A DNA stretch of 64,000 nucleotides from Methyloglobulus sp. (GTDB taxonomy: Bacteria; Pseudomonadota; Gammaproteobacteria; Methylococcales; Methylomonadaceae): assembly GCA_013141505.1 (NCBI GenBank), contig JABFQX010000020.1:1-64000 (forward strand). Reading direction: 5' to 3'. Under the pieces are notes generated by a model, which was given only the letters and a program-made list of their open reading frames with translations, ran no database searches and was not told where the DNA came from. Shown piece after piece: positions 1 through 18,217 of this stretch (its first letter is position 1; every line of letters begins with the position of its first letter). Position numbers and translations under genes: made by a program.

Positions 1-3000
1 CGTTCAAGGCCGGGGTGTACGTCCAGGTGCCGTTGCCGTTGTCGACCAACGTGCCTGAGCCTGAACTGATTGCCAAACCGGACGCGGTGAGGCCGTCGCC
101 GTCGATGTCGCTGGCGTTGCCGAGCAGTTCGGCTTGGCCGATGAGCCTTGCGCCGCTGTCCTCCAAGACCGGGCTTAGGGTGACGGGGCTGGTGGCCGGG
201 GCGTCGTTTATACGAAGTACGTTAATATCTCTAGTAGAAGCAGCACTAAAACTAGCGCCGTCATTAACTACAAATACAACGGTTCTAACATTGTTATCAG
301 GTTGCTCGCTCGTATTATAATAACCAACCGACCTTAGCGCAGCTTGGTAATTAGCCACTGATGTTGTGCCAGAAAGGGTAAGAATTCCTGTTCCACTGTT
401 CCAACTCCCAGTAATACCAAGTTGATTAGAAAAGGAAAGTACATCTTCTCCGCTACGATAAGAGAGTGGGTGTATTTGTACTGTTGCCCCAGTTAGGGTT
501 GTATTATCAACATCACTAACTGATATTGCACTATCGATAACAATTGAAAAATCATTCTCAGTATAGTTAACAGTAGTTACGCTCGTGGTAACAACTGGTG
601 CATCGTTGACGGCTGTAATATTTACGATTGTGCTACCTGATGCAGTTAACGCACCACCAGAACCTTGAGCACTTATATTGCCGTCGTTAAATACCCAATT
701 GATTTGTACGGACGCAGACGGCGTATCGCTTGTGTTGATGTAAGCGATCTGCTGCATTGCTTGATTAACTAACGCGTTGGTAGCGTTGGTGTTGAAAGTC
801 AGCACCAATGTACCGCCGGAATTGGTGGTTACAGTGCCGATGTTTAGACTGCTCACCGTAAGGTTACTACCTTGCGCCAACACTCCCAAAGAGCCAGTTT
901 CGGAAAACACGTCCTGTGCATTGGCTCCCCCGCTTCTAATCAGCGTAAGTATCGCACCATTGAAGTTGTTACTGTTCGTCAATTCGGCATCGAAGATCGT
1001 GACATCGGCATCCAACACTACCGCAGAGCCGCTTTCGATAAAGGAAGGCGTACCATTCAGATTGTTGAAGACCGGCTGATCGTTGACGGTTGAGGTTAGA
1101 TTTACTGTCCCGGTAGCTGTGTTGCTGGTGCCACCATCGCCATCATTGGCAACAACGGTGATCGTGCGTATACCCAGCGTGGGTGTATCGGATTGCGTGT
1201 TGTAAGTCACCGCCGCATACACTGCTTGCGCGCGGATCACAGTGGCATTGTTATTGAAGCTCACGACCAACGGCGCACCACCGGTACCGCCGCTCCAGGT
1301 ACCCACCGTTACACCCGACACCAACACGTCAGCACCGGACAACGAAACCCCACCCACAGCAAGCAAGAACAGCCGGTCGGTAGATTCGCCACCGACGCTG
1401 ATGCTGGCGGTGAGCGTTCCGCCCGAAAAGTCCGCACTGTTGATGTCGGTGATGGCGGCCACGCCGTAGAACGGGTTCGCGCCATTAGTTTCCGTAGCGA
1501 TCGCACTGCCGCCGTTGGTTAGCACCGGAGCGTCGTTTACCGCCGTAATATTGACCGTTGTGCTGCCGGTCGCAGCCAATACGCCACCAGTGCCTTGCGC
1601 TCCGCTATTGCCATCGCTAAAAGTCCAGTTGATTTGTACGCTGGCAGGAGGCGTATCACTGCTATTGCTGTAAGCAATCTGTTGCAATACGGAATTAACG
1701 CGTGCTTGCGTAGCATTGCTGTTAAAGGTCAATAATAATGTGCCATTGCTGTTGGTGATCACTGTGCCTACCGTTACGCCACCAACTACCAAATTACCGC
1801 CTTGGGTTAACGCGCTGAGTGTGCCGGTATCGGAGAAGATGTCTTGCGTGTTGGCACCGCCATTTCGGATTAAAGTTAAGGTCGCGCCGTTGTAATTGCT
1901 CAGCGATAATTCGCTATCGAAGATTTGTACATTGTTATCTAACACCACAGCAGCCCCGTTTTCGATAAAGGTGGGCGCGCCATCCAGGGTATTGGTGATG
2001 CTGCTTGTGTTAAATATAGGGTCAATGCTACCATCAGGAAGGTAACTAATTATGCCAAAGTCCCGATTACCACCAACGGTAGCGGTCACACCCGCTACGA
2101 TTCGCCCGTCTGACCTGACGGCTAAACCTTCGATGAATGAGCCGGTTGCAATATTTGTGGTGACTTTGCCGCCATTGCCAAAGCTGGTGTCCAATGTGCC
2201 GTTGACGTTGTAACGCACCAAGGTGCTATTGAACGATCCGTTATAACCTCCCAAAATAATTTTGCCGTCTGACTGAACCACCATGTCTACCGCGACATCC
2301 GAACCGCTGATATCGGTCAGGGCTTTTCCTGTACCGCTACCGAAAGTGGTATCCAATGTGCCGGTTGAGGTATATTTAACCAATGCAAAATCGCCAAAAC
2401 TAGAATAACCACTAACGAGTATCGTGCCATCACTGTTGACAACTACTGACCTACCGTAATCTGTTCCTCCCATATCGGTTTCTACTTTGCCGCTTAAGCC
2501 AAAACTGGTATCTACAGAACCGTTGCTGTTATAGCGCACCAGCACGAAATTGTTGTTTCCGGCACCTGCCATTAAAATTTTGCCGTCAGATTGCAGTGCA
2601 AGCGAATATCCTGAATCAGCTGCTACAGTGGCGTCGGTAGTGACTTTTCCGCCAGTACCAAAGGATGTATCAAGGCTGCCATCGCTATTTAACCGAGCCA
2701 GCGCAAAAAGGCTGTTACTCGTCCCGCCGATAATAATTTTGCCGTCTGGCTGCACAATTACGGTTTGCGTATCCTCCGTAGTACCGGCAAAATCGACCAT
2801 GACTTTGCCCGTCCCGGCAAAGTTGGTATCTAGGCTGCCATTCGTATTTAAACGAATCACCGCGAAGTCCATGCTGCTGCCATTATGACTTCTACCGGCA
2901 ACTATAATTTTGCCATCGGCTTGAATGGTTACGGCATAGGCTTCGTCTGTGCTACTGCCTACGCCGACGGTAACTTTGCCACCGGTGCCAAACGAAGTAT

Positions 3001-6000
3001 CTAAACTGCCGTCAACGTTGTAACGCACTATGGCAAAATCATCATTGCTGCCATTGGAAGCATAGCCAACGACGACTGTTTTACCGTCGGCTTGCACGGC
3101 CATTGCCCGCGCCCAATCATCTCCGGTGCCGATGGTCGTAGTGGCCGAACCGCTACCGGCATTAAAAGTAGGGGCATCATTGACCGAGTTGATTGTGACG
3201 GCGATATTACTGGTAGATTGGTATAAGTCGCCGGATAGCGCAGCGATTTCGCTTGCACCTAATGCCCGATTATAAATACGCACATCATCAATTTTGCCGT
3301 TGAAGTCGAAGTTGGTCGATCCATTGCCGTGCTTGCCAATAAAGCTATTGGTGCCTAAGGCATAGCTAATTGAATCGGTGGTGTTTAACGAACCTACCTG
3401 CACGCCATCGAGGTATAGTGCTGTCGCATTGCCGGCATCGTCGAAACTGAAAGCAACATGGTGCCAGCCTGTGCCCGCTAGCACTGTGTTGTAACTAGTG
3501 CCAACCCAAGTTGTACCGTTGTAATAGCCACCTAGGAGAGTGCCACCAGCGTCCAGGCGCAGCAATACGTTGTCGCCCAATGAGATTACATCGGAGCCAT
3601 TGGTGCCTGCGCTGGTTAGATTAACCCATGCGGCCAAGGTAACGTTGGCCGGATTATTAAAGGTGCTGTTAATCTGTACTGAACCGCCAGCACTACCTAG
3701 ACTCAACACTTGCCCGCGAGTACCGTCAGTGACTATAGTGGCATTGCCGATAAAACTGCCGTTTTCTGCGCTGCCTGTGCTTTGGTCGTTGGCATTGCCA
3801 TTAAACGGATAATAGCCTGTTAAATCGGCGGCCAGTTTACTGGTGACTTGCACATTCGCCGTGCCGTAGTAATTGGCAGACGGCGTGTAAGTCAAGCCGT
3901 TCAGGGCGTTATTGATGGCACTTTCTGCGCCTACCAAAATAATGCTGGTGCTGCCATTTGTGCCAGATAGCACTGTGATGCCGGTCGTTGATGCTAGCGT
4001 CAAAATACCATTGGTGGATGTCAATGTCACTTCCATACGGGTATCACTAGAAGTACTGTCAGTCACCGTTATGGCGTTACCGTTAGCGTTGGAAAAGACC
4101 AAAGCGGTATCTTCATTCACTACTTGGGTGGTGGAAGGCGCGGTGTTCAATGGCCCGACTGTTGTTGCAGGCAGATTCATCGAGAATTCTGAAGTTGACC
4201 CGTAATTGCCGCCGCCAAGGTTTACTGTAGCAGTCGCGCTGATGCGATCATTTGCGGCTACAGTAGCGGACATCGGCGCAAGATCGAAGTCAGCATGACC
4301 AGAAGCATTGGTAGTCACATCGACTGCGAATAAAAAGACACGACCTTCACCATGCCCGGTAGGGTCTTCGGTGCCTAGTGGATTGTTGAAAAACTCGAGT
4401 CTAAATGTGGTGTTAGCTGTAGAATCGATTGCACCTCTAATTGCAATTGTGTTGCTGGTTGTAGCCGCTGTATAAAGCACCGGAAAGTTTTGCAGATTAT
4501 TCGCACCGGAGTCAGCATCAAGATTTGCCGGTAAATCGTTAGTGGTTATGCTGTCCCAATTTAGATCAATACCCAGGCCGCCATTTTCGGTAATTACATT
4601 GCCTAAAACAGCATTATTAGTTGTTGCCGAATCTGCTATTGCAATCCCAGCTTGAGCATTAAATTTGATTGCATTACCGGCACTCGCTGCAGTGCCACCA
4701 ACCATATTGCCATTGGCACCGTTGAAGATATAAACGCCATTATTTGTATTGCCACGAGCCAATACGCCTGTGATGTCAGTACCGATGTAATTCCCGGCGA
4801 TTTTATTGCCTGTAACTTCGGCATTCGCAAGTGCGATACCGTTATAATTAGCTGAGATGATATTGCGTTCGTTCGCGTCGTTGCTGTTGTCGCTGTCAGT
4901 ACCGATGATGTTGCCAGTGACCGTAGCCGTTGTGCCACCGTTGTAAAAGTAGACACCGACCCCGGTATTGCCGACGACTGTTGTTCCATCCGCTCCCAAA
5001 CCGATAATGTTGCCTTGTACTTTATTGTTGGTGACACCGTTAGCAATAAGAATGCCTGTTACGTTGCCTGATATTACATTGCCCGCACCGGTTAAGCCGG
5101 AGCCGACACTATTACTCGAGGCTCCATTCCAAAATGATACCCCACCTTGTGAATTACCCAGTGCTACCAAACCGGTTACATCGGTACCAATGTAATTGCC
5201 CTGCACCATGTTATTCGTGGTGTCAACACCAATCATCTCGACACCGTACCAATTGTTGCCAGAGATAATGTTGCGTTCGGCTACATCGTTACTGCCATCG
5301 ACGTTAGTGCCGATGCGGTTATTGCTAGCACCGTCCGCCATGACTACGCCACTAGCACCGTCAATTTGCGCGCTGCCATTTACATCAATCGCGCCGGTAA
5401 TATCGGTACCGATATAGTTGCCGATGACCACGTTGCCGGTGGCTGAAGTACCGATAATGTTGATACCTGAAAGACCATTGCCGGAAATTATATTGCGGGC
5501 AGTTGCGGTGTTGCCGCCAATGACATTGTTTGCCGATTGCACATAAAGGCCATAACCGGCATTACCCAGTGCAGTGGTACCCGCCGCATTCAGGCCGATT
5601 AGGTTACCTGCAATCAAGGTTCCTGCCGCATTCGATCCAAGATCCAGTCCAGCCCCATTCACTGTGCCGCTAATAACGTTACCTTGACCGGCTAAGCTCC
5701 CGCCTATCGTACTACCAGCCGCATTTATATACATACCTAAATTGACGTTGCCAACAGCGGCAGTACCGGCAGCATTGGTGCCGATATAGTTGCCAAGGAT
5801 CTGGTTACCGGTGCTTGTCCCGTTACCTGTGTTGATTACTAGACCTACATTGGTATTGCCGGAAATAACGTTACGGTCAGCGGAACTCGCTCCGCCGATA
5901 ATGTTATTACTAGAATTCCAAATATTGATGCCCAACAGATTACCTGCGGCAGCCGTGCCGGTAGCAGTAAGCCCAAGCCAATTGCCTGCAATGGTATGAC

Positions 6001-9000
6001 CGCTGCTACTGTCAATATCAATAGCATTTCCCGTACAACTTTGGATGATTAGGCCGCGGATTGTGCTGCCATCAGCGCCAGCATAAAGTCGTATTCCGTG
6101 TTGCACGATCCCGCCGCCGTTAAGGACGACCACGGGGCTTCCGATGGCATAGTCGGGCTCGCTGCTCGCATTAATCACAACCGGACTGGTAATTGTCGGC
6201 AACATCGACGTAAGGTTAATGGTATGCGGCCCCGCACCAGTGATGTTGAAATAGATATAGTCCGGACCACCAACATTAGCGGTAGCGTTTGCGGCCAAAA
6301 TTGCTTCGCGCAGGGAAATGCCATCACCACCATCAGAGGCCACCAGATTAGCGATTGATGCTGTATTGCCGTTGATGTTATCGCTCAGATTGGTAACGAC
6401 CAGTGCGCCCACATGGACATTAATTGTATCCGTATCGCTTTGTGCGCTGCCGCCGGTATTACCTAAATCGTTAGTTGTTACTGTGAGTTGCTCCAAACCT
6501 CGATAGCCCGCAGTGGGGTTAAAGGTCACCCCACTATTTAAGACCGTGTTCAACGCACTTACCGTGCCGGAGTAAGTTAAGCTAGCACTGCCGTTCGCCC
6601 CGCTGACCAAGATTAGTCCCGTCGTATTGGCTAAAGTTAACGTACCGTTGCTGACCGAAAGTGTCACCTGTATCGGATTGCTGGCGGCATCGGCATCGGC
6701 TATCTGAATTGCATTGCCGCCCGCACCCGAAAAGGTGATAGCCGTGTTTAAGGCTGTATATCGATTGCCTGGAATCGTGTTAACCGGCGCATCATTGACC
6801 GGTGTCACTGTAACCCCAACCGTGTCGGTGTCGGTTAAGCTCAGGTCGGCTGCCAAGGTAGCCACTTCGGTGGCTGTAATCGCGCGGTCATAGATCCGAA
6901 AGTCATCCATTAACCCTAAAAACTCGCCATTGATCGCGCCGTTGTCGTATGCGCCGATATGCGTAGCGGTCTTACTATTGAGCGAAGAAATAAAGGCATT
7001 CGTCGTGGCTGAACCGACCACGAAAGTACGGCTGGCGGCAACGCCGTCGATATAAAGTTGATTACCCGAAGCGTTTACAGTGACTGCAACATGATGCCAG
7101 TTACCATCATTTACTATTGCGGTCGAATGCGTTTCAAGCACAGAAACATTCCCATCTACCACACTAAAACTAAGTTGACCGTTATTGACATAAAAAGAGA
7201 CAAAATTTTGTTGTGTTGCGCCGTCGCCGATATCGAAAATCGTGCGATCTCCGGTTGCAGTGGTCTTGATCCATGTTGCGAATGTGCCTTGAGAATAAGT
7301 GGCAAAAGTTGCTGTATGGGAGTTAAGGCTGACATAATCATCCGCACCATCGAGGTTCAATACTTGGCCACGTAGCCCATCATTAACGATATTGGCATTA
7401 CCCATCAACGTACCATTTTGTGCAGTGCCAGGTGCAACATCCTTAGCGTTGCCGTTGAAGGTATAGTGTGCTTGCAAGTTGGCATCAATATCCAGCGCAA
7501 CTAAGGTGTTGTCGCGAGAGCTTATGGTCAGCGTTGAACCGCCGCTGTAGTTGCTGGTAGGGATGTACGACAGGCCGTTCAATGCGGCGTTTATATCGAT
7601 GACCGTACCCCGGAAAGACATGGTGCTATCTGCTGTGCCATCACCTGTAGTAAAAGTAAGCCCGCCGATGCCTGATAAGGAGAGAGTACCATTCGTTACG
7701 GTCACGGTGACTTCAATGGGGTTGCTACCTGCATCGGCATCGGTGATAGCGATTTGGTTGCTGTTGCCCGATGAAAATATCAGCGCCGTGTCTTCGTTGG
7801 TAATCTGTGATCCAGGTACAGTATTTACTGGAACTACATATGAGGTAGGCGAAGCTTTCACTGATACCGCACCAATAGACCACTGAGCACCAAGGGCGGA
7901 CAATATTGATGCAGAGCCACTCATGGTTACAGAAGCCGCACCGGCTTCAGTTGATGAACTACCTAATGCCGATGTTAACAAAGAACTACTCGACCACTGA
8001 GAGGCTTGCCCAGCACCAACAGGGTCTGCTAGCGTATCAGTCCAAAATTGTGCATCAATCACTACATCACCCGGGGCACTTGCTACGGTGACAGAACCTG
8101 TTAAGTTCAACAAGAAAGTTGTACCACTATTACCAACAAAAGTGCCGGTAGGCGTAGACTGGTTGACACCATTAAATATTGACGCGCCAGCGGCTAAAGC
8201 GGTATTGCCTGATAGAGTTACAACAATATTTGCAGTTCCCACCGCCGGGTTTGCCAAAACCCAGATTTCAACAGCATGATTCCCTCCTTGACGACCAACT
8301 TGAGTCAAGGCCACACCACCATAGGTTACACTGTTTACATTTGACCCCAGATTGTCAATAGCGATTTCGACAAATAAAGCGCGGTTAACTCCAGAATTGA
8401 CGGTATGTGCCCAGGTCAAACTTGATGCATTAATGCTTGCCGCTGATGTTACGCTACCATTCGAAGTAACTGCCAGTACTTCCGTCCATTGGTTTTGAGC
8501 CGCTAAACTGATGGTGTTTTTTACTTCGATTGAGCCAGTTTGATATTCGAGATTCCAATCAGCCCCCTGTTTCGAACTGCCTGTATTATCTGTAGACGCT
8601 GCTATATCAACATTCGTCAATCCTGATAAATAATTGATAAAACTTTGGCCAAACTGGGTTTCTGCGACATTACAACCATAAATTAGAAAATCGCCATCTA
8701 CTGTAAACGCATCTCCCCAAGATTTTATCTGCGTCTGATATTGAGTCAGTGTCTGAAAATTTAATTGGTTATTACCGATGTCAATACTGCCATCACTGCC
8801 ATGCGATATTAAATGCACTGAATCCAAGTTTTGGCGGTGCGATAGGACATCGGTAATTTGAGCAATTCCGTCTTGGTTCCTATCCAGCAGTATTACTTCA
8901 AAATTCACACCTGTTTTCGCATGTGAGGTGATATCGGCAATTAGCGTTTGATAATCTTCAATATCGCTATCAACAAAAATGATTTCATCTTTGGTTTCGA

Positions 9001-9559
9001 CCTGAGACGGTACAAACGAGGAATTTATATCGAGTTCTGGTGATGTTAGTTCGCTGATTGAAGTTGTATCATTAATATTTGGCTGATTGACTAAGGTTTC
9101 ATCCGAAAGTTTTTCCTTAGTGGCTGACAAATCGGTTTCAAGCAAGAGCTCTTTATTTCCAATATTTGCAAGTTGGCTATCTTCATCCTTTTGATATCTA
9201 GTATCATCTTGCGTTTGCTTCAAAAACTGGGATGCATTGCCACCAACTTCTTCTGCAGTATTTATGTCAGGGTTATTTGCCGAAGAATCGGCTATTGCCA
9301 CTGAAATTAAAGAAGCATTTTGCTCAGGGTTTATAAGTTCAGCCGAACTGTCAGCATTAGGAATAGCCGTAAGGTCACTTGCAGTTTTGCTTTCAACAAC
9401 CGGTTCAATGTTGGCATCAACATTAATGACTGTTGCTTCGTTAGCTACAGGCTCTGGAGGGATAACACCTTCCGCACCGCCGGAAAATAATTGTCGTGAT
9501 TCCAGTTCCTCCAGAATAAACTTAGAGTTGTATCTTTGCTGCGGTGATTTCTTTTTCAT
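1..9559 (-). CDS. Giant LEPR-XLL/DUF4347 multi-repeat surface protein (3' end outside window)
   Basis: One frame is open from an ATG at 9559 to the left edge, giving at least 3,186 residues. I checked the frame near 9550, 8770, 6310, 3010, 1150 and 1. The N-terminus has a basic stretch followed by LEELESRQLFSGG (about residues 15-27), which resembles the LEPR-XLL motif of very long proteins. A DUF4347 domain follows (about 190-350, with HLISHGSDG and a later YGCNVAE). Next come two LamG/concanavalin-like domains (about 690-900 and 1900-2100), a right-handed beta-helix introduced by SLREAILAANA (about 1080-1670), delta-60 repeats (about 2130-2500) and cadherin-like modules ending at the edge in the typical GTWTYTPALN. 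There is no classical signal peptide, so export by an unusual route is likely. Role inferred: extracellular adhesin or matrix protein. The first upstream genes encode an HlyD adaptor and, further up, a SecA-like/M50/HlyD operon. Confidence 0.9.
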   Translation of the reverse strand, partial: MKKKSPQQRYNSKFILEELESRQLFSGGAEGVIPPEPVANEATVINVDANIEPVVESKTASDLTAIPNADSSAELINPEQNASLISVAIADSSANNPDINTAEEVGGNASQFLKQTQDDTRYQKDEDSQLANIGNKELLLETDLSATKEKLSDETLVNQPNINDTTSISELTSPELDINSSFVPSQVETKDEIIFVDSDIEDYQTLIADITSHAKTGVNFEVILLDRNQDGIAQITDVLSHRQNLDSVHLISHGSDGSIDIGNNQLNFQTLTQYQTQIKSWGDAFTVDGDFLIYGCNVAETQFGQSFINYLSGLTNVDIAASTDNTGSSKQGADWNLEYQTGSIEVKNTISLAAQNQWTEVLAVTSNGSVTSAASINASSLTWAHTVNSGVNRALFVEIAIDNLGSNVNSVTYGGVALTQVGRQGGNHAVEIWVLANPAVGTANIVVTLSGNTALAAGASIFNGVNQSTPTGTFVGNSGTTFLLNLTGSVTVASAPGDVVIDAQFWTDTLADPVGAGQASQWSSSSLLTSALGSSSTEAGAASVTMSGSASILSALGAQWSIGAVSVKASPTSYVVPVNTVPGSQITNEDTALIFSSGNSNQIAITDADAGSNPIEVTVTVTNGTLSLSGIGGLTFTTGDGTADSTMSFRGTVIDINAALNGLSYIPTSNYSGGSTLTISSRDNTLVALDIDANLQAHYTFNGNAKDVAPGTAQNGTLMGNANIVNDGLRGQVLNLDGADDYVSLNSHTATFATYSQGTFATWIKTTATGDRTIFDIGDGATQQNFVSFYVNNGQLSFSVVDGNVSVLETHSTAIVNDGNWHHVAVTVNASGNQLYIDGVAASRTFVVGSATTNAFISSLNSKTATHIGAYDNGAINGEFLGLMDDFRIYDRAITATEVATLAADLSLTDTDTVGVTVTPVNDAPVNTIPGNRYTALNTAITFSGAGGNAIQIADADAASNPIQVTLSVSNGTLTLANTTGLILVSGANGSASLTYSGTVSALNTVLNSGVTFNPTAGYRGLEQLTVTTNDLGNTGGSAQSDTDTINVHVGALVVTNLSDNINGNTASIANLVASDGGDGISLREAILAANATANVGGPDYIYFNITGAGPHTINLTSMLPTITSPVVINASSEPDYAIGSPVVVLNGGGIVQHGIRLYAGADGSTIRGLIIQSCTGNAIDIDSSSGHTIAGNWLGLTATGTAAAGNLLGINIWNSSNNIIGGASSADRNVISGNTNVGLVINTGNGTSTGNQILGNYIGTNAAGTAAVGNVNLGMYINAAGSTIGGSLAGQGNVISGTVNGAGLDLGSNAAGTLIAGNLIGLNAAGTTALGNAGYGLYVQSANNVIGGNTATARNIISGNGLSGINIIGTSATGNVVIGNYIGTDITGAIDVNGSAQIDGASGVVMADGASNNRIGTNVDGSNDVAERNIISGNNWYGVEMIGVDTTNNMVQGNYIGTDVTGLVALGNSQGGVSFWNGASSNSVGSGLTGAGNVISGNVTGILIANGVTNNKVQGNIIGLGADGTTVVGNTGVGVYFYNGGTTATVTGNIIGTDSDNSNDANERNIISANYNGIALANAEVTGNKIAGNYIGTDITGVLARGNTNNGVYIFNGANGNMVGGTAASAGNAIKFNAQAGIAIADSATTNNAVLGNVITENGGLGIDLNWDSITTNDLPANLDADSGANNLQNFPVLYTAATTSNTIAIRGAIDSTANTTFRLEFFNNPLGTEDPTGHGEGRVFLFAVDVTTNASGHADFDLAPMSATVAANDRISATATVNLGGGNYGSTSEFSMNLPATTVGPLNTAPSTTQVVNEDTALVFSNANGNAITVTDSTSSDTRMEVTLTSTNGILTLASTTGITVLSGTNGSTSIILVGAESAINNALNGLTYTPSANYYGTANVQVTSKLAADLTGYYPFNGNANDQSTGSAENGSFIGNATIVTDGTRGQVLSLGSAGGSVQINSTFNNPANVTLAAWVNLTSAGTNGSDVISLGDNVLLRLDAGGTLLGGYYNGTTWVGTSYNTVLAGTGWHHVAFSFDDAGNATALYLDGVQVGSLNTTDSISYALGTNSFIGKHGNGSTNFDFNGKIDDVRIYNRALGASEIAALSGDLYQSTSNIAVTINSVNDAPTFNAGSGSATTTIGTGDDWARAMAVQADGKTVVVGYASNGSNDDFAIVRYNVDGSLDTSFGTGGKVTVGVGSSTDEAYAVTIQADGKIIVAGRSHNGSSMDFAVIRLNTNGSLDTNFAGTGKVMVDFAGTTEDTQTVIVQPDGKIIIGGTSNSLFALARLNSDGSLDTSFGTGGKVTTDATVAADSGYSLALQSDGKILMAGAGNNNFVLVRYNSNGSVDTSFGLSGKVETDMGGTDYGRSVVVNSDGTILVSGYSSFGDFALVKYTSTGTLDTTFGSGTGKALTDISGSDVAVDMVVQSDGKIILGGYNGSFNSTLVRYNVNGTLDTSFGNGGKVTTNIATGSFIEGLAVRSDGRIVAGVTATVGGNRDFGIISYLPDGSIDPIFNTSSITNTLDGAPTFIENGAAVVLDNNVQIFDSELSLSNYNGATLTLIRNGGANTQDIFSDTGTLSALTQGGNLVVGGVTVGTVITNSNGTLLLTFNSNATQARVNSVLQQIAYSNSSDTPPASVQINWTFSDGNSGAQGTGGVLAATGSTTVNITAVNDAPVLTNGGSAIATETNGANPFYGVAAITDINSADFSGGTLTASISVGGESTDRLFLLAVGGVSLSGADVLVSGVTVGTWSGGTGGAPLVVSFNNNATVIRAQAVYAAVTYNTQSDTPTLGIRTITVVANDGDGGTSNTATGTVNLTSTVNDQPVFNNLNGTPSFIESGSAVVLDADVTIFDAELTNSNNFNGAILTLIRSGGANAQDVFSETGSLGVLAQGSNLTVSSLNIGTVTTNSGGTLVLTFNTNATNALVNQAMQQIAYINTSDTPSASVQINWVFNDGNISAQGSGGALTASGSTIVNITAVNDAPVVTTSVTTVNYTENDFSIVIDSAISVSDVDNTTLTGATVQIHPLSYRSGEDVLSFSNQLGITGSWNSGTGILTLSGTTSVANYQAALRSVGYYNTSEQPDNNVRTVVFVVNDGASFSAASTRDINVLRINDAPATSPVTLSPVLEDSGARLIGQAELLGNASDIDGDGLTASGLAISSGSGTLVDNGNGTWTYTPALN
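600..2000 (-). repeat. Two copies of a cadherin-like module
   Basis: The stretch at about 600-1090 is repeated with recognisable DNA identity at about 1540-2000, an offset of roughly 940 bp. A related but different module lies between them (1083-1540). The copies encode the same order of motifs in the giant protein, each opened by VNDAPV-like linkers. This shows growth of the gene by internal module duplication. Confidence 0.75.
2040..3170 (-). repeat. Delta-60 repeats within the giant gene
   Basis: About seven tandem units of roughly 53 codons each contain the motifs VQADGKIxVAG, FAxxRYNxxGSLDTSFG and TGKVxxD. This is the pattern known as delta-60 repeats, which are thought to form beta-propeller-like structures. 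Copies differ at many codons, so the array is old rather than newly expanded. Confidence 0.85.
4600..6000 (-). repeat. Beta-helix coil repeats within the giant gene
   Basis: Repeats of about 50 codons carry GNYIGTDxTG, a short NxxGV segment and RNIISGN/GNVISGN. They match right-handed parallel beta-helix coils. About ten units are readable. They are preceded by a SLREAI segment near 6310, as in the N-cap of CSLREA-type beta-helix proteins. Confidence 0.8.
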
Positions 9560-9735
9560 ACTAAAGACCTAGACCATAGAATCAATCAAATCTCAGTTAG
9601 CTCAGCGCATAACTACGACATCAGGTTAATTCTAGGTCACAATTAAAAGATTTTTTGGGGAAATACTCTCAAATATAGCGTTCCATTAACCAAAATATCT
9701 TTTCAAAAAAAGATTAATGGCTTAATAGCTTGTTA

Positions 9736-10635: not shown

Positions 10636-10818
10636 CTAATCTAAATCTATTCGATCAAAAATCATTTATGACAATATTAAAGCTATAAATAATATTAGCT
10701 TATATTTCGCACTTTCTTTGTGACAAACATCTTAAACATTACTTTTCGTCACGTCAGTTGGCTTTAAAATAATTACGCTATAAGAATTATAGCTCTGTAC
10801 ATGACAAAAAATATTCGG

Positions 10819-10890
10819 TGTCATTTCGAACGATAGTGAGAAATCTTAAGCCACTGAAGTTTAAGATTTCTCCCGTTGGTCGAAATGACA
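10819..10890. repeat. 72-bp imperfect palindromic element (MITE/REP-like)
   Basis: Two arms of 34 bp (10819-10852 and 10857-10890) are inverted copies of each other with few mismatches. Both ends read TGTCATTTCG on opposite strands, and both arms contain GAGAAATCTTAA. The element fills the middle of the 364-bp gap between the SecA-like gene and the HlyD adaptor gene. Such ends and size suggest a non-autonomous mobile repeat. The folded RNA could also act as a transcription or processing signal between the two genes. Confidence 0.75.
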
Positions 10891-10999
10891 AAAATACAAC
10901 CGATGTAACGCTTATTAAGTTTTTGTCGTATACATAGGAATTATTGTTAATATTTATCATGGTCTTATATAGAGCATATCTTTGGTTTACACTACTCAT

Positions 11000-12997
11000 T
11001 TACTCAAATTTGCCTGAAAAAGCTAATAACCGCGCCAAATGTTTATCATGCTCCATTACCTTTTTTCTGATCTGTCTTTGCTGCTTTTCTTTTATCATTT
11101 GCGGAAAACGCAATATCAGCCGCCCTAAAAATTCTGGGATAGGTTTTGTCCCAAAACAAAATGTTGCAAACACCTTAAGCATAGTTGCAGAATAAAATTG
11201 TTGTAGGGCAAAATCTTGCAATGACAAAATGGCTTCCGTACTGCCGGGATCGCCTTGTCGGGCACAGCGACCATAAAGCTGCCGGTCAATTCGTCTCGAA
11301 TCATTGCTATTTAAGGCGATAACATGCAACCCACCTAGTTCGCTAACGCCAAGTCCCAAGTTAATATCAGTACCCCGTCCTGCCATATTTGTCGCCACCG
11401 TGATGGCTTTTGGCTGTCCTGCTTTGGCAATTATTTCTGCTTCCTGTTTATCTTGTTTTGCATTTAGAGTTTGATGAGGATAGCCTGCTTCTTGTAACCA
11501 AGTGGCAACTTCTTCTGATTCTGCAACTGAAGCGGTACCGATTAAAACGGGACGGCCTTTCGTATAAAGTTCGGCAATTCGCTCAAGTAGAGCCTTGCGT
11601 TTAAGGTCTGCTGTTTGATAAATACGCTCTGGCATCATAATCATAAGCGACGGCTTGTGCGTCGACACCCTCATGGTCTGGAGTCCGTAAATATTGTGCA
11701 TTTCTGCCGAAACTTCTGCTAGCGTCCCGGAAGTACCGGCAAGATAGAGGTAGCGGCTAAAAAAGACTTGGTAACTGATCCGTGCCAAGGTTTCGCGTTG
11801 TTCGGAAATAAGGCAGCCTTCTTTCGCCTCAATCATCTGATGCAGGCCTTGTTCCCACGAACGATCTGCCATGATACGGCCAGTGAACTCATCGACGATC
11901 TGCACCTTATCGTCTTGCACCACATAATGTTTGCCTTTTTTGTAGAAAAAATCAGCGGTTAATGCTTTTTTTACCAAAAACTCCCGCTTGCGTTTGTTTT
12001 GCCAAAATTTGGGCAGTCCGTTAGCTTTGCTGGCTAATGTATCTTCACCTTGTTGGGTAAATTCAATTGACCGAACGTTAACATCGACAATAAAGTCATC
12101 ATTTATCATTAACAATGATGCCAAATACAAGGCATCGCTATAGATTTCCGGCGTTTCTTCGTTTGGTTTGGTCCGGGTGATGATTAAGGGTGTTTTAGCT
12201 TCATCAATAAGCACGCTATCGGCTTCATCAATCAAAGCAAAACATAAGCCCTTAAGTAATAATGGGTTAGCATTATCATTCGCTACTTCACGTTGAATTT
12301 GTTGGCATTGAAATTTAAGCAGACCGGCTTCTGTACCTATTGCTAACCGGTCACGAAGATAATCAAACGCAATTTGTTTATTGGTGGTATGTACGATATG
12401 ACATTGATAGGACATTAGGCGTTGTCCTTTTTCCATGCCATCAATAACCGCACCGCCCGTTAAACCAAGGCGTTGATAGAGCGGTTGCATGGTTTCGGCA
12501 TCGCGGCTTGCCAAATAGTCATTGGCGGTGATCACATGCACCGGAATGCCAGCCAGTGCCGCCGTGCATGCGGGCAGTGTAGTGGTTAAGGTTTTGCCTT
12601 CTCCAGTCGCCATTTCCGCTAACATGCCATTGATCATGAGCCAGCCACCAAACAATTGGGCATCAAAATGGCGCTTGCCTAATGCTCTACCTGCGGCTTC
12701 TTTAATCGTCGCAAAAGACTGTGCGATTAACGCGTCAGTCAGTCCACTACGGACCAGTTTTTCCCGTAACTGGAAAATTGATAAGGTTAAGGCTTCTTCA
12801 GAACACTGACTTAAATGAGCTTGATGCTGGTTTATTTTTTTGATCACAGTCGTTTGATCAAAGCGATTACCGCTAAAAAATTGCCGGATTTTTTCAAAAA
12901 AAACCGAAGCATTTTGTTCAAAGTCGGTTAATTCGCTTTCCTGCTTTTGCGGATAGCTACCAAACCGAAGCCCTGGTCGAAAAACGGCGTTAGACAT
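11000..12997 (-). CDS. SecA-like ATPase lacking the C-terminal scaffold region
   Basis: The 665-aa protein has the SecA motor core: Walker A ATGEGKTL (130-137), the DEAD box (257-260) followed by SVLIDEAKTPLI, a preprotein cross-linking domain with VDEFTGRIM and WEQGLHQMIEAKEG, and NBD2 with TNMAGRGTDI and GRCARQGDPGST. It stops about 70 residues after NBD2, whereas canonical SecA is about 900 aa with a helical scaffold, two-helix finger and zinc-binding tail. An accessory role rather than general SecYEG secretion is therefore likely. It overlaps the stop of the upstream M50/HlyD gene by 8 bp and has a GAGG ribosome site. I infer that it drives export of the giant protein encoded downstream. 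Confidence 0.85.
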   Translation of the reverse strand: MSNAVFRPGLRFGSYPQKQESELTDFEQNASVFFEKIRQFFSGNRFDQTTVIKKINQHQAHLSQCSEEALTLSIFQLREKLVRSGLTDALIAQSFATIKEAAGRALGKRHFDAQLFGGWLMINGMLAEMATGEGKTLTTTLPACTAALAGIPVHVITANDYLASRDAETMQPLYQRLGLTGGAVIDGMEKGQRLMSYQCHIVHTTNKQIAFDYLRDRLAIGTEAGLLKFQCQQIQREVANDNANPLLLKGLCFALIDEADSVLIDEAKTPLIITRTKPNEETPEIYSDALYLASLLMINDDFIVDVNVRSIEFTQQGEDTLASKANGLPKFWQNKRKREFLVKKALTADFFYKKGKHYVVQDDKVQIVDEFTGRIMADRSWEQGLHQMIEAKEGCLISEQRETLARISYQVFFSRYLYLAGTSGTLAEVSAEMHNIYGLQTMRVSTHKPSLMIMMPERIYQTADLKRKALLERIAELYTKGRPVLIGTASVAESEEVATWLQEAGYPHQTLNAKQDKQEAEIIAKAGQPKAITVATNMAGRGTDINLGLGVSELGGLHVIALNSNDSRRIDRQLYGRCARQGDPGSTEAILSLQDFALQQFYSATMLKVFATFCFGTKPIPEFLGRLILRFPQMIKEKQQRQIRKKVMEHDKHLARLLAFSGKFE

Positions 12998-15137
12998 TAA
13001 ACTGCCTCAGAAATGCTTGCCGGATGCGGCGATACCATTGTTTTGAAATGGCTTCACCGCCGTGATTGATGCGGACATAAGCACGCGTGCCCAATGGGGT
13101 ATTGGCATCTTTTGGCTTGATCGCTAGGTCAACCCAGAATATTTTCTGTAACGTCACCAAGTCTTTCGGCTGACTGGGGTCGATTTGTATTTTGCCGCCA
13201 CCGGTTGTCGCAAGTGCCGGACTAAACAGTTTATTGGTCGCTTCAGGAGTTAACCTGAGCAAAGTTGCATCAAGTTCGTCGTTGGGATGATTGCTGAGCC
13301 TAACTTTAATATCGGCAATTCGTCCGCGTAGTTGACCAATATTATCTTGGATCACTGCCATGCGAATGGTCGGTGGATAACCATCCCTTATATAACCGAT
13401 AACTTCACCATGATGAATGTATTGACCCGGTAAGTCATCCACATCGGGCAGGAGAATTTGCCCATCTTTGGCCGCTTTAATGGTCAACGTGCTAATTTTT
13501 CTATTGAGATGTTCGAGTTCTGATTGGGTGATGCGATATTCTTCTTTAACAATTTCAGCTTTAACCAGATTGGTTTCACGTTCGGCGCGGAACTGACTTT
13601 GTAATTCAATCAATTTAGCGCGGGCGATTCTGGCTTTAGTTTCCAACGTATCATCACTTAAGCGCACTACGACATCGCCTTTTTGGACAGGCTGGTTGCT
13701 TTTAACTTGCAATTCGCCGATAAAGCCATCGTATTCAGCTTTAATCAGTGCGTCATCTGGCAACCACACCACACCTTCGGTCACTGTATAAGCTGGGACG
13801 GGCATAAAACCAAATAAACCCACCGTTAACAGGCCGAGTGACATAGTAGTTAGTGCAGCACGATTCCTTTTTTTGCTCAAACTTGGATTTTTTAGGACAA
13901 ATGTTACTGCCTTATAGATCGGTAAAATAATTTGGATAGCGACCATCCAAAGCGCAAGCAATACTCCGATTGAGAAGAACTTATCGGTAATATAAACGCA
14001 GATGAACCAGAGAATGCTCAACCGATAGAACAATGAACTAATACTGTAAACAATAAACCAAAATGTTTCACCCGATGCGCTAACTGGCGTGGCGGCTTGG
14101 CTTAAGCCCAATAAATAGCGCTGAGAAAAATAACGCCAATATTGGCCTGAGCGTTGAAATAAGTTTGGTACGTCGATTGCATCGGCTAGCACGTAATAGC
14201 CGTCATACTTAAGCAAAGGATTACCGTTAAAAAACAAGGAGGATACGCCGCCAAGCAAAAAAACATTAAAGCCAATCGTTTGCAAAATGCCCGGTTGGGT
14301 GCTTAAAAACAGCAACAGACCCAATGCTGCCAAAAAGGTTTCAACCAAAATGCCCGCAGAACTGACCAATATGCGGTCATATTTATTGCGAAAGTTACTT
14401 GAACTCGATACGTTCACATAAGGTACGGGCATGAACAGCATGAAGTTGACACCCATTTCGTGGACTTCGCCGCCATGCAATTTGGTCGCGAAAGCATGAC
14501 CTAATTCATGAAGGATTTTTATAATCGGATAGAGAAAAAACAGGATTAAAAAGTTATCGGGTTCCAGCGCATTGATTTCAAAATGGTGGGTGATTTTCTC
14601 CCAATTTGTCCCGGCTTGAAGGCTGGTAAACACCATAAGTAGAAACCAGATAAGCCCGAGCCAGACGCTAAATACCCATGACACGTTGCCTATGTATTTC
14701 GCCAAAAAATCTTCCGGATCCCACAGCGGCACTTTTTGCGAAAGCGGGTTAATAAACTGCTGATTTATCTTGGTTTGATCGTGCCGACTCTGACGGTCAA
14801 AAAGCTCTTCAACATTAACAATGACATCAGTCTTGATTAAATCGGCGTTATAAAGTTGCCCCATCAATTGGATCATTTCTTCTTGCGTGGGCGCAAAATC
14901 GCCTAGTTGCTTAGCTAAAATATCGGCAATTTCTTGTAGGGTACGTTTGCCGTCAAGCTGGCCGATAAATTGATAAGCGGCTGGATTAAACCGGTGGTTA
15001 CGGCCATTGCTGGTGTCTTCGATGATATACCAAATTAACCCACGATAATCATGCCGGTGAATTTCGATATGACTATGCAGCTTAGGGCTAAGCTCTGCAA
15101 TACGATACCAATGCGGGCTGAATAAATTATCATTCAT
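12990..15137 (-). CDS. PqqD-like/M50 metalloprotease/HlyD chimeric membrane protein
   Basis: The 715-aa protein has a PqqD-like winged-helix region (about residues 30-110). It continues with a polytopic M50 site-2-protease core with HELGH at 210-214 and NPLLKYDGYY at 306-315 (N306, D312), both zinc-site motifs intact. More membrane segments follow to about 440, then a HlyD adaptor part (GFIGELQVKSNQPVQKGDVV, coiled coil 500-550, beta-barrel). Such PqqD-M50-HlyD proteins are known next to peptide-export genes. Function inferred: membrane-embedded protease/adaptor for secretion or maturation of a protein substrate. It sits 15 bp after the GAF/HlyD gene and overlaps the SecA-like gene. Confidence 0.85.
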   Translation of the reverse strand: MNDNLFSPHWYRIAELSPKLHSHIEIHRHDYRGLIWYIIEDTSNGRNHRFNPAAYQFIGQLDGKRTLQEIADILAKQLGDFAPTQEEMIQLMGQLYNADLIKTDVIVNVEELFDRQSRHDQTKINQQFINPLSQKVPLWDPEDFLAKYIGNVSWVFSVWLGLIWFLLMVFTSLQAGTNWEKITHHFEINALEPDNFLILFFLYPIIKILHELGHAFATKLHGGEVHEMGVNFMLFMPVPYVNVSSSSNFRNKYDRILVSSAGILVETFLAALGLLLFLSTQPGILQTIGFNVFLLGGVSSLFFNGNPLLKYDGYYVLADAIDVPNLFQRSGQYWRYFSQRYLLGLSQAATPVSASGETFWFIVYSISSLFYRLSILWFICVYITDKFFSIGVLLALWMVAIQIILPIYKAVTFVLKNPSLSKKRNRAALTTMSLGLLTVGLFGFMPVPAYTVTEGVVWLPDDALIKAEYDGFIGELQVKSNQPVQKGDVVVRLSDDTLETKARIARAKLIELQSQFRAERETNLVKAEIVKEEYRITQSELEHLNRKISTLTIKAAKDGQILLPDVDDLPGQYIHHGEVIGYIRDGYPPTIRMAVIQDNIGQLRGRIADIKVRLSNHPNDELDATLLRLTPEATNKLFSPALATTGGGKIQIDPSQPKDLVTLQKIFWVDLAIKPKDANTPLGTRAYVRINHGGEAISKQWYRRIRQAFLRQFNV

Positions 15138-15152
15138 TGCGCTAACCCCGTG

Positions 15153-16907
15153 TTATATCCACCAAGACCACAGCCACAGACGAAGCCAACTGATTATCTC
15201 ATGTGTCCAAATCCATAGAAAACTGCGATGCCCAACCGTGATTTTGCCGATACCTTCCATGCCTGGACGGAGTAAGTTTGGTGCTTTATCCAGACTGGCC
15301 TCGACCCGAAAAATATTCTTGTTATCCTCGGCTTTGGCAACTGCTGTGATTTTCTCGACGGTTAAGTTAAATTTTTGGTCAGGCAGGCTGGACAAGGCCA
15401 GTACGCCTTTTTGACCTTTATTGACATAAGAAATTGAACGTTCATTGACCTTAAGAATAATCCGATAACCTTCCAGCGGCGCAATTTTAAATAACATGTC
15501 GCCACGCTCCACCGGCGAACCTAATTTTTGGCTTAAATCGCCTTCAATCACCACACTATCGAAGGGCGCGGTCAGGGTGATTTTTTGCAGTTGTTGGCGA
15601 GTCAGTTCCATCTCGGCATTCGATTGGTCGATTTGGGCGCTGCTTACCCTGATTTTGACGAGATCGTTTGTGGAAAGTGCTTCGCGGTACTCCCGACGAA
15701 ATTTTTGCAGTTGGCCATTGAGTTTATTCAACTCAAGTTGTAATTCAGCGTCATCCAGCGTCGCCATCACCTCGCCGTTATGGACGGTATCACCCGCTCT
15801 GACTGACGCGGATAACAGGAATCCTTCAATAGGCGCGGCAATGATGCGTTGCATTTTACCTTCCAATACCGCATCGGCAGTGACTTGAAATTCACCTTGT
15901 AACAGGGCAGACGCCAATAACAAGCCGGCTAAACTCGCCAACATCAGTTTCATTTTAAGATGTTTAACACCAAATAGTTCGGTAAGTTTAGCTTTAAGCC
16001 ATTGCTTAATCTTTGTTAATGCACTGAGTTCTTGGCCTTTTTTTAACACTAAAAAAGGCGTTAACAACGATAGGGTTAACTTGCAAAGCCTCGCCGTTTC
16101 TAAGTCGAAAGGCTGCTCTTCATTTCTTAATAAAGTGACTGCACCAACAATCGTTTGGTTATCAATCATCGGTATGGTGAGCAATGAACCCGAGCCGAAT
16201 TTACGTGCTAATTCCTGATGTGCGCGTTGAATACTGCTGGTAACAGCATCGGGAAAGGTTATTAGGCAATCTTGCTCAATCGCTTCGTCCATCGCATCCG
16301 CAATTTTTTGGATAAAATTGGAGCGGTCGTCAAAATTAGCGCTATTGGATAACGCAACTACCTTACTGTGTTGGTTGGTCAATTCCCCTAACGCTACCTG
16401 TTCGCAATTGAACATCCGCGTCAATTCCGCAACCAGGCTAATCAGTGCTTTAGGGTAACTTTTTTGCTCAGTACAGGCCGCCAAGACATTGATGACCGAG
16501 ACATAAAAATCTTTGGGCTGATCTTCTTGATTGTTAGCTAACGTTAACCATAAACCGCTTTGCTTTAAAGTTGAGAAGATGTCGGCATGATATTCTTTAG
16601 GTGAGGCTTTTACCTTAACAACAATAAATCCTAATAATTCGGTTTTGAAGAAGACCGGCTGGGCGAAAAAATCGCAGAGACTTTGGTCAGTTTGCTGAAC
16701 ATTAAGGATGCTGATTTGCTCATTTTTTGCTATTGCATACTGAATGATTAAAGCAAAATCGTTGACATCATTCAAATCTTCCGGCCATTTTGCCAATGTC
16801 TGCAAACTTTGGCTTTTGCTATCCGGCAACACAAAAATGGCGGCTTGAACCCCCGTTATGGATTGACACAGAATAGTTAGCCAATGCTGGGCGAAATTCG
16901 ATTTCAT
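15153..16907 (-). CDS. GAF-domain/HlyD chimeric adaptor
   Basis: The 584-aa product has two GAF-like sensory regions facing the cytoplasm (about 1-130 and 140-300). One membrane span follows (about 328-345, LMLASLAGLLLASALL), then a periplasmic HlyD-type part with lipoyl halves (IEGFLLSASVRAGDTVHNGEVMATL and TLTAPFDSVVIEGDL), a coiled coil between them and a C-terminal beta-barrel. The tail is very rich in Trp (WLRLWLWSWWI). An AGGAAA ribosome site precedes the ATG, and the gap to the HDOD gene is 2 bp. It is probably the second adaptor subunit of the same secretion complex, with export coupled to a cytoplasmic ligand. Confidence 0.82.
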   Translation of the reverse strand: MKSNFAQHWLTILCQSITGVQAAIFVLPDSKSQSLQTLAKWPEDLNDVNDFALIIQYAIAKNEQISILNVQQTDQSLCDFFAQPVFFKTELLGFIVVKVKASPKEYHADIFSTLKQSGLWLTLANNQEDQPKDFYVSVINVLAACTEQKSYPKALISLVAELTRMFNCEQVALGELTNQHSKVVALSNSANFDDRSNFIQKIADAMDEAIEQDCLITFPDAVTSSIQRAHQELARKFGSGSLLTIPMIDNQTIVGAVTLLRNEEQPFDLETARLCKLTLSLLTPFLVLKKGQELSALTKIKQWLKAKLTELFGVKHLKMKLMLASLAGLLLASALLQGEFQVTADAVLEGKMQRIIAAPIEGFLLSASVRAGDTVHNGEVMATLDDAELQLELNKLNGQLQKFRREYREALSTNDLVKIRVSSAQIDQSNAEMELTRQQLQKITLTAPFDSVVIEGDLSQKLGSPVERGDMLFKIAPLEGYRIILKVNERSISYVNKGQKGVLALSSLPDQKFNLTVEKITAVAKAEDNKNIFRVEASLDKAPNLLRPGMEGIGKITVGHRSFLWIWTHEIISWLRLWLWSWWI

Positions 16908-16909
16908 CG

Positions 16910-17773
16910 CTAAATTTCCTGAGCGTATCTACGTACATTAGGCGGACGTAGCATTTCTAAGATGTTATCAATATTGCTATTAATATCGTTGCTTATAATT
17001 TCCGCAAAATTCTGGGGCAATTGGCTAAATAGTTGATTAGTTTTATTCAGTGGAATATTTAACATATCGCTATTAGGTTGTTCACAGAAACGATAGGCAA
17101 AATGCACAATGTCTGTCGCCGTCCGAAAATCAGTATGGCTTTGCTCAGGTGATAAATGATGTCCAATCACTTGCTGATAAACTTTGGGCAAATGCCATTG
17201 CCGCATGAGTTCCACGCCTAACTGGCAGTAATCAAACCCAAAATGCTCACGTTCAATGTCAGCAATCGGTTGATTCAGGTCTTGGCTTTGTTGCAGGGCG
17301 GTTAGCATTAAATCAGGTGCCTTGATAAACATGGCAACGTGCCCTATATTCACCAATAAGCCTAAACTGAAATAGCGGTTATTGGCAGGTAATCGGCATA
17401 ATCGGGCGATACGTCGTGAAGCAATTCCGCATTTAATGCCATGCCGCCAAAAATCGTCAAAATTCAATAGGTGTTCGGGAATATTGTAAAAAGTACGCAT
17501 ACATAAGCTACTGAGCAATAGGTCATGGAGCTGAATGATGCCGATTAGGCTAATGGCTTCATAAAGATCTTTCGCTTGCCGGTTAAACCCGAAAAACTCG
17601 CTATTGGCAATCCGCACGATTCGGATAGACAACATCGAATCCATCTTAATAAGATTTTCGTAATCGTCGATTTTAGCTTGGGGGTTTCCCATCAGTTTTC
17701 TGATTTTCTGATAGATATCCGGCATCGATATTTTCTCAGCTAAATCACAGATGAATTCGTGGGTAGCCTTCAT
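16910..17773 (-). CDS. HDOD domain protein
   Basis: The roughly 287-aa product matches the HDOD fold throughout: an N-terminal helix region with MDSMLSIRIVRIANSEFFGF, a middle segment DFWRHGIKCGIASRRIARL, and NIGHVAMFIK where HD phosphodiesterases keep catalytic His-Asp. HDOD proteins lack HD catalysis and act in signalling or regulation. A GTG lies directly before the ATG; I prefer the ATG at 17773 because of the AGG spacing. It is the first gene of the tight operon that continues into the GAF/HlyD gene, so a regulatory role for the secretion genes is plausible. Confidence 0.82.
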   Translation of the reverse strand: MKATHEFICDLAEKISMPDIYQKIRKLMGNPQAKIDDYENLIKMDSMLSIRIVRIANSEFFGFNRQAKDLYEAISLIGIIQLHDLLLSSLCMRTFYNIPEHLLNFDDFWRHGIKCGIASRRIARLCRLPANNRYFSLGLLVNIGHVAMFIKAPDLMLTALQQSQDLNQPIADIEREHFGFDYCQLGVELMRQWHLPKVYQQVIGHHLSPEQSHTDFRTATDIVHFAYRFCEQPNSDMLNIPLNKTNQLFSQLPQNFAEIISNDINSNIDNILEMLRPPNVRRYAQEI

Positions 17774-18217
17774 CACGTTTACCTAAAATAGGCTGTTTCA
17801 ATAGACGCGTAAAGTGGATGGATCATTTAGACGGGCTTTCGATTTTAGTAGACAATAACGTTCCAATCTGAAGATACGGCCTATTTTCAATTAAGTTTTA
17901 ATAGAAAATACCTGCCTGCATTTTTAATAACTTCAGTTTTGGGTTCGCCTCAAGTATAGACTAAAAAAGCTTTGATAAACCTGACCTAAAATTAGTCGCT
18001 TTATTTATAGCGACAAATCAGATTTTGCGACTGAAAACAACTCAAGTTCCCAGAAAAATCCGCCTGCAACGACTGATCTCTCTAGTTGCATTGAGTATTG
18101 GATGGATAACTGTGCGGTTAGTTGGATGTGGTAACGGATTTATTGCCTCTATTATTACTTCAGCACAATATTAATAAGCAGAAAAACGCCTTAATATTGT
18201 TACGCTCAATAGCATTC
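17774..18217. other. Intergenic stretch, no gene recognised
   Basis: These 444 bases separate the HDOD operon from the short HDOD-like gene. The DNA is AT-rich and has stops in all frames. The leader and promoter of the operon must lie here, but I see no convincing paired -35/-10 or hairpin. Confidence 0.5.

Follow-up and report, generated by a model that had tools for sequence, protein, structure and literature searches.

A candidate export machine for giant proteins with a LEPR-XLL-type leader in Methyloglobulus

How might a protein of thousands of residues leave a bacterial cell when its N-terminus bears no ordinary signal peptide? The question is raised by a locus of Methyloglobulus sp. 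(Gammaproteobacteria; GenBank assembly GCA_013141505.1), in the first 64,000 nucleotides of contig JABFQX010000020.1, a stretch that we call the window. There, a giant gene follows genes for an HDOD protein, a GAF-HlyD adaptor, a fusion of a PqqD-like domain with M50 protease and HlyD parts (M50-HlyD, or M50 for short), a SecA-like ATPase and a free HlyD adaptor, and an open reading frame (ORF) check placed all six on the minus strand (Table 1). An earlier note on this DNA read the set as an export system for LEPR-XLL/DUF4347 giants. We found that LEPR-XLL giants and the M50-HlyD operon are linked far beyond chance, and the operon looks like an undescribed machine for leader-tagged giants. Genomes, contigs and loci are labelled G, C and L.

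Linkage of the LEPR-XLL leader with M50-HlyD genes

We searched 369 gammaproteobacterial genomes, single species spread evenly over the class, with the window M50-HlyD protein (P0003, E ≤ 1e-10), the SecA-like protein (E ≤ 1e-125), DUF4347 and the NCBI LEPR-XLL model NF012209, which found matches in 56, 19, 46 and 34 genomes, respectively. M50 relatives were present in 30 of the 34 LEPR genomes (5.2 expected; Fisher P = 2e-24) and in 35 of the 46 DUF4347 genomes (7.0 expected; P = 7e-25), in tests that take genomes as independent and ignore relatedness. They were also present in 19/19 SecA-like genomes at that threshold, the only one applied to M50-less genomes, where diverged copies are possible. 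A looser SecA-like search, covering 36 M50-positive genomes, added frames in G053, G060, G240, G258, G303 and G366. Two LEPR-model matches without M50 (G120 and G237) were short frames (99 and 168 aa) that probably matched by chance; both were kept in the count. The co-occurrence across genomes that the earlier note had proposed was thus found.

The linkage extended to other classes. A scan of named genomes with an M50 alignment gave at least 589 confirmed relatives, and we compared the best 80 of these at least 589 loci, a set that leans to group 1 (defined below). They came from Gamma-, Beta- and Alphaproteobacteria, deltaproteobacterial/Desulfobulbaceae genomes, an Omnitrophota, a Rokubacteria and a Nitrospira metagenome-assembled genome, among others. 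SecA-like genes were found in 59 of the 80, GAF-HlyD in 54 and free HlyD in 40; among the 29 loci flanked by 7 kb or more on each side, the counts were 23, 23 and 18. Because similar sets recur in many genomes of several phyla (taxa as recorded), the gene set is not a chance assembly. In 19 genomes chosen for M50 loci (from 20 of the best 80), the LEPR model matched 17, compared with 34/369 Gammaproteobacteria and 5/215 genomes evenly sampled from the class of Bradyrhizobium. The two without a match were G386 and Methylomonas LW13, whose giant nonetheless carries the leader; the match in G370 (Methyloglobulus) was a 69-aa frame that may be chance, and its giant has LEELETRQLFSDG. In Bradyrhizobium DOA9 a LEPR frame of 9,838 codons is expected to stop roughly 2 kb upstream of M50, which leaves space for a GAF-HlyD gene. 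Four of the five LEPR matches in the 215-genome sample were frames of 32–610 codons, and 11 of these genomes had M50 relatives.

NF012209 matched nine of ten tested N-termini, seven of them above cut-off; these were all nine relatives, and the tenth, that of the window giant, gave no match. We assigned the window leader to the LEPR-XLL type by homology only, because its relatives carry it: the complete Methylomonas LW13 giant (3,323 aa) has LEELESRQLFSGG, as in the window giant, and the Methyloglobulus relative has the leader already given. The Planc_extracel model PF07595 matched at the leader in two of five tested N-termini, both below cut-off (L141, E 0.0016; window giant, E 0.25, residues 15–27). 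Over 86 N-terminal rows, two of them clearly spurious (L075; L183, 698 aa) and with at least three giants present twice (L183/L259, L202/L248, L214/L244), the consensus was [LFI]-E-x-L-E-P-R-[IL]-L-[LF]-S-A-D, mostly preceded by a basic stretch; conservation of E and R is by construction, because the search pattern fixes them. The pattern matched 41 of 74 large ORFs (at least 900 aa, or cut DUF4347 proteins) versus 6 of 834 others. The longest leader-bearing open frame, in Roseateles, had 14,414 codons. On a crude hydropathy scale (not SignalP), a 13-residue mean of at least 2.0 was reached by 0 of 65 LEPR N-termini versus 39 of 61 free HlyDs, in line with the earlier note's claim that the giant has no ordinary signal peptide.

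Leaders fell into two classes, ending in SAD/SGG (S) or DGA (D; LEPRxxFDGA-like), which largely sorted with two M50 groups, separated at a P0003 score of 160 bits rather than on a tree. Among same-locus pairs, group 1 had 33 S leaders (one row spurious) and one A, and group 2 had D in 3/3; seven more group-2 cases with D were seen by eye (G056, G303, G279 and G224, and, in the class of Bradyrhizobium, G420, G549 and G478). Group-2 M50-HlyD genes travel with HlyD genes and a gene for a TolC-type lipoprotein. The source genome holds both groups: the window's SGG leader stands with group 1, and contig C88 (L056) has a group-2 set of TolC-type lipoprotein, two HlyD-like genes and M50-HlyD. Two further giants of this genome, on C25 (L057) and C39 (L058), have an LLFDGA-type leader. 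A double-glycine leader of the C39 kind, which SGG resembles, was rejected, as SAD is the commoner ending and no C39 domain was found in the operon.

DUF4347 behaved differently from the leader. Of the 35 DUF4347 genomes with M50, 33 had the LEPR motif on a DUF4347 protein (33 of the 34 readable, that of G193 being cut), compared with 3 of 11 in genomes without M50, where the remaining eight started with a signal-peptide-like segment (five) or with the domain itself (three). It is therefore the leader, not DUF4347, that travels with M50. We rejected DUF4347 as the coupling element because 8 of 11 DUF4347 proteins without LEPR came from M50-less genomes and LEPR giants without DUF4347 adjoin M50 in G053 (L141, L092), G295 (L099) and G306 (L103). 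Of the export system first proposed for LEPR-XLL/DUF4347 giants, the link between LEPR and M50 thus stood, while DUF4347 proved a frequent passenger. The predicted model of the domain (predicted local distance difference test, pLDDT, 94) has a caspase-like clan CD fold, matching best Tce1 (9qpe, Z 13.1) and then a SAVED-CHAT filament (8tl0, Z 9.9). In an alignment of 59 of the 62 domains found, the Cys of YGC was invariant and the His of SHG almost invariant, and DUF4347 might serve as a protease domain, for self-processing or at the surface.

Parts of the putative machine

Among the products of the operon, only the M50 protein is clearly polytopic. Its HExxH and N-P-D zinc site is present (PF02163, 27.4 versus a cut-off of 27.2), and H210, E211, H214, N304, N306, P307 and D312 were invariant in all 33 proteins of an alignment of group 1 plus intermediates (L096–L100); among group-2 proteins, H, E, H, N and D were kept in 11/11. 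The protease is thus probably kept active. An AlphaFold model (mean pLDDT 86) comprised an N-terminal domain of three strands and three helices, a membrane region made of helices, and an adaptor that matches MacA (9qgy, Z 14.9). The PqqD-M50-HlyD gene named in the earlier note was accordingly upheld in its M50 active site and in its adaptor, as a predicted fold.

The N-terminal domain is predicted to have a leader-binding winged-helix fold of the RRE type, RRE being the recognition element for ribosomally synthesised and post-translationally modified peptides (RiPPs). Among solved structures, the predicted fold matched the TbiB1–leader complex (5v1v, Z 10.4 over 86 residues) and a lasso B1–leader complex (6jx3, Z 10.3, 84 residues), and two other chains scored alike (8hkr, Z 10.5; 7vzu, Z 10.2). 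The earlier note had named PqqD, not this fold, which as a model offers the best clue to how the leader might be read.

The SecA-like protein (665 aa) aligns to SecA residues 26–603 (numbering of 7xha, the best PDB match) and ends soon after; the source genome has its full SecA elsewhere, as a 917-codon frame. In SecA, the C-terminal part holds the two-helix finger and the scaffold. Among 72 complete copies shorter than 760 aa, Walker A was kept in 70, DExD in 70, GRG[TS]D in 64 and a strict arginine-finger pattern in 50, and the C-terminus lay 76–91 residues past GRxxRQG in 66/66 measured proteins. Because motifs are kept and ends are uniform, it is very likely, judged on sequence, that the protein is an ATPase whose C-terminal truncation is conserved; the absence of the scaffold had been recognised in the earlier note.

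Genes of the TolC type formed clusters in eight group-1-type loci and eight group-2 loci, with one of each confirmed as OEP (L056 in group 2). At the C-terminus, some S-class giants share a conserved hydrophobic hairpin (like GLSxGYxxWLLRxGxLxSSxLxxxPxWxxxDPLPIL) with a charged tail after it, seen in 9 of 1,216 ORF ends (L064, L066, L099, L144, L150, L153, L193, L201, L202) and additionally in the LW13 giant (L290); L087 was similar by eye. This hairpin might keep the chain anchored in the inner membrane once the N-terminus is outside, which would give a tethered surface fibre.

Proposed mechanism, rivals and known systems

We observed the gene content, conserved catalytic motifs, predicted folds, the genome-wide coupling of leader and M50 and the sorting of leader classes with M50 subfamilies; from these we infer leader binding, cleavage, conduit assembly, a motor role and a surface location of the giant. 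It is likely, in our judgement, that the operon is a dedicated export and processing machine for giant surface proteins in which a LEPR-XLL leader replaces the hydrophobic signal peptide, with an RRE-M50-HlyD core, HlyD and TolC parts and a SecA-like push in most lineages. The RRE domain of the fusion would bind the leader, as RiPP enzymes bind theirs, and the M50 intramembrane metalloprotease part would process or gate it. A periplasmic conduit leading to a TolC-type outer-membrane channel would be built from the HlyD/MacA-like portions of three proteins (M50, GAF-HlyD and free HlyD), and the scaffold-less SecA-like ATPase would push the chain in most lineages, the source lineage included.

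Several observations, beside the assumption of independent genomes, weigh against this reading. The clearest exception to the coupling is G213, where a LEPR frame of 7,373 codons (C57 near 21725, L261) occurs with no M50-HlyD match; G076, G123, G245 and G286 also show LEPR without detected M50. Conversely, 14 M50 genomes had neither a LEPR-model nor a DUF4347 match, among them G008 (75% complete), which also has a SecA-like gene, and G306, which does hold a LEPR giant. Just 2 of the 11 M50 genomes in the 215-genome sample had a LEPR-model match, while three others showed a D-type leader by eye. DUF4347 proteins without LEPR occurred in M50-positive G077 (L152) and G323 (L131, L132), each of which holds another LEPR protein (L269 and L101, respectively). 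The sorting of leader classes is blurred at about 226 bits, where the leader that goes with M50 is of class S in G284 and of class D in G177; in G060, whose M50 scores 151 bits, GAF-HlyD occurs together with a diverged SecA-like gene (L100). PqqD scored 20.1 bits in the window protein, below the Pfam cut-off of 23.4, and matched just 8 of the 33 aligned proteins and 0 of 11 group-2 proteins, so that an RRE is not claimed for group 2. The window operon contains no TolC gene, and no dedicated inner-membrane channel gene was seen in it.

The motor is a further point of this kind. No SecA-like gene was found in G052, G094, G190, G206, G290 and G350 (completeness 93–100%), which have GAF-HlyD/M50 genes and only SecA frames of 881–943 codons, nor in the group-2 loci read (L056, L101–L114; some short), and it was absent from 6 of the 29 well-flanked named loci. 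Because it is missing from these carriers and loci, the SecA-like protein is not a general motor, and we rejected it as an obligatory one. It is a common but replaceable part: the motor role first proposed for it would apply in most lineages and is not universal.

We consider it unlikely that the giants exit otherwise (by general Sec, with an unusual signal, or by a type I exporter elsewhere) and that the operon just processes, tethers or releases them, like LapD/LapG or exosortases. M50 proteins are primarily proteases, the zinc site supplies some of the few alignment columns that never vary, and the SecA-like gene is dispensable. The C-terminal hairpin and charged tail of some S-class giants could, moreover, be an inner-membrane anchor for M50 to cut, and it is because of this that the alternative keeps what weight it has. 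However, the HlyD/MacA-like adaptors found in three proteins of the operon, the TolC-type genes of some loci and the SecA-type ATPase all indicate transport. The coupling follows the N-terminal leader, with a predicted leader-reading fold on the same protein as the protease, and LEPR N-termini have no strong hydrophobic core.

A variant of accessory Sec, in which the SecA-like protein drives giants through SecYEG and M50-HlyD acts later in the periplasm, we judge rather improbable. Accessory Sec (SecA2/SecY2) devotes a second SecA to giant surface proteins, and SecA2 handles serine-rich adhesins through the Sec channel. The likeness of a second SecA for giants is joined by the kept SecA ATPase motifs, by the absence of any other inner-membrane channel among the genes seen and by the full-length SecA present in carriers that lack the SecA-like gene. 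Among the recurring neighbours we noticed no SecY, in a comparison that included no model search aimed at it. In contrast to SecA2, the protein ends 76–91 residues past GRxxRQG (66 proteins), before the two-helix finger and scaffold, and reached the cut-off of none of four SecA2 models (506.9 versus 1085, 448.1 versus 930, 410.3 versus 725 and 372.2 versus 1100). The giants, furthermore, have no signal peptide, and HlyD parts are present here. That the operon exports other cargo, such as the product of a small leader peptide, next to giant genes adjacent by chance seems to us highly improbable. The closest NCBI protease models do belong to RiPP maturation (daptide, epipeptide), but the association with LEPR giants greatly exceeds chance and for the most part tracks leader class, and the only small recurring neighbour was DUF3467 in clusters limited to ORFs of at least 110 codons, a search that did not extend to shorter precursor genes.

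The dedicated export machine that we favour resembles several known systems in part. It shares HlyD-type adaptors, a TolC-type partner in some loci and giant repeat proteins with type I secretion (HlyB-HlyD-TolC) and its large adhesins, but the leader here is N-terminal, and M50 and SecA-like proteins occupy the place of the ATP-binding cassette (ABC) engine; no ABC domain was found in the six window proteins (Pfam/NCBIfam), to which that search was confined. GGxGxD repeats were absent from the LW13 giant, the closest complete one, numbered 9–18 in the giant pieces of six alphaproteobacterial loci and were absent from a seventh (L194). Peptidase-containing ABC transporters and NHLP bacteriocin exporters likewise use an N-terminal leader, a dedicated protease and a HlyD adaptor, whereas here the protease is an M50 intramembrane metalloprotease rather than C39, there is no ABC and the substrates have thousands of residues; no C39 peptidase fused to an ABC was found in the six window proteins. 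RiPP proteases of the daptide and epipeptide kind act under the guidance of a leader and share the M50 fold. They differ from the present protein, which has a fused HlyD and giant substrates and does not reach the cut-off of the daptide intramembrane metalloprotease model NF041824 (123.8 bits versus 300). Unlike housekeeping SecA, the SecA-like protein is without the full domain set (scaffold, two-helix finger, C-tail), and unlike substrates of general Sec export, LEPR N-termini do not offer a hydrophobic N-terminal signal peptide on the crude scale.

The leaders described by NF012209 and PF07595 share a similar motif, LExLExRxLL. The Planctomycete consensus RRLxxExLExRxLLA, reported in 2004, is thought to be an export signal (PMC8567305), LEPR-XLL is mentioned in two of the papers found, one of which concerns a giant Vibrio protein (PMC10868602), and tripartite exporters are described (PMC8277102) as energised by ABC, resistance-nodulation-division (RND) or major facilitator superfamily (MFS) transporters. 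In the open-access full text covered, with subscription papers and preprints outside the search, we found no description of this gene set, nor, in the texts found there, any export machinery attached to either leader. We consider about as likely as not the broader claim of a new class of secretion system, with RiPP-style leader recognition through RRE-M50-HlyD for proteins as long as about 14,000 residues, a scaffold-less SecA-type drive in most lineages and HlyD/TolC parts, whose leader would be the Planctomycete extracellular motif and which would have a relative as machinery there. If true, a protease–adaptor fusion with a trimmed SecA would be a new type of engine for tripartite exporters, and would account for the way in which some bacteria cope with the largest proteins they make (frames with the leader reach 14,414 codons). 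The curated LEPR-XLL model, and a Planctomycete signal that resembles it, would thereby be tied to a concrete, deletable gene set, which makes a long-standing gap in machinery testable, the Planctomycete signal included; the operon may explain that related export tag too.

The window locus and its neighbours

Base 1 of the window is base 1 of the 88.8-kb contig, and the giant gene is open to the contig end, with no stop. All genes lie where the earlier note had placed them on the minus strand, but only the first four are closely spaced, with gaps of 2 bp and 15 bp and one 8-bp overlap; 364 bp, holding the inverted repeat, precede the free HlyD gene and 176 bp precede the giant gene. The same order of HDOD, GAF-HlyD, M50, SecA-like, HlyD and giant genes is found in Methyloglobulus morosus. 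Methylomonas LW13 has a similar operon, with two HDOD genes before GAF-HlyD and a divergent giant. The HDOD protein is probably a regulator; we rejected it as a core part, as HDOD genes cluster in just 11 of 123 compared loci.

Table 1. Positions of the window features and of a recurring neighbour gene
Feature	Position	Strand	Basis or content
HDOD protein	16910..17776	-	HDOD domain by Pfam/NCBIfam
GAF-HlyD adaptor, 584 aa	15153..16907	-	GAF and HlyD domains by Pfam/NCBIfam
RRE(PqqD)-M50-HlyD fusion, 715 aa	12990..15137	-	M50 and HlyD domains by Pfam/NCBIfam
RRE-like domain of M50 protein (residues 16-105), proposed leader reader	14823..15092	-	Predicted fold
SecA-like ATPase, 665 aa	11000..12997	-	SecA_DEAD, SecA_PP_bind and P-loop_SecA domains
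12-bp perfect inverted repeat	10838..10872	-	Between SecA-like and free HlyD genes
Free HlyD/RND-type periplasmic adaptor, 299 aa	9736..10635	-	HlyD domain by Pfam/NCBIfam
Giant gene, at least 3,186 codons	2..9559	-	Leader, DUF4347, LamG, delta-60/DUF5122 and cadherin-like repeats
LEPR-XLL-type leader motif LEELESRQLFSGG (giant residues 16-28)	9476..9514	-	By relatives; weak PF07595 match
DUF4347 domain of giant	8474..8983	-	Pfam/NCBIfam; predicted caspase-like (clan CD) fold, conserved His and Cys
DUF3467-cluster genes (other loci)	L209:8327-8662, L184:7676-8044, L217:561-947, L235:8407-8829		

In a cluster of eight loci, a gene of about 110–140 codons lies between the giant and GAF-HlyD genes; the two members scanned (L209, L184) were DUF3467, and this gene is possibly a chaperone of the giant. 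Another neighbour cluster comprised 12 loci (L231, L195, L206, L090 and others), of which the two scanned (L231, L195) were SapC, a family linked to S-layers. Large membrane sensor proteins also adjoin giants, at L193:7565-10543 and, in similar form, in L064, L066, L086, L151 and L153; the L193 sensor, which was scanned, has GGDEF and EAL domains, which suggests cyclic di-GMP control.

Elsewhere in the window, a 114-codon HDOD fragment (18218-18562) lies upstream of the operon's HDOD gene. A fragment with a transposase domain (DUF772) overlaps a truncated DUF3570 gene (36607-37146 and 37017-37517), and a full relative of the latter stands at 37585-40335.

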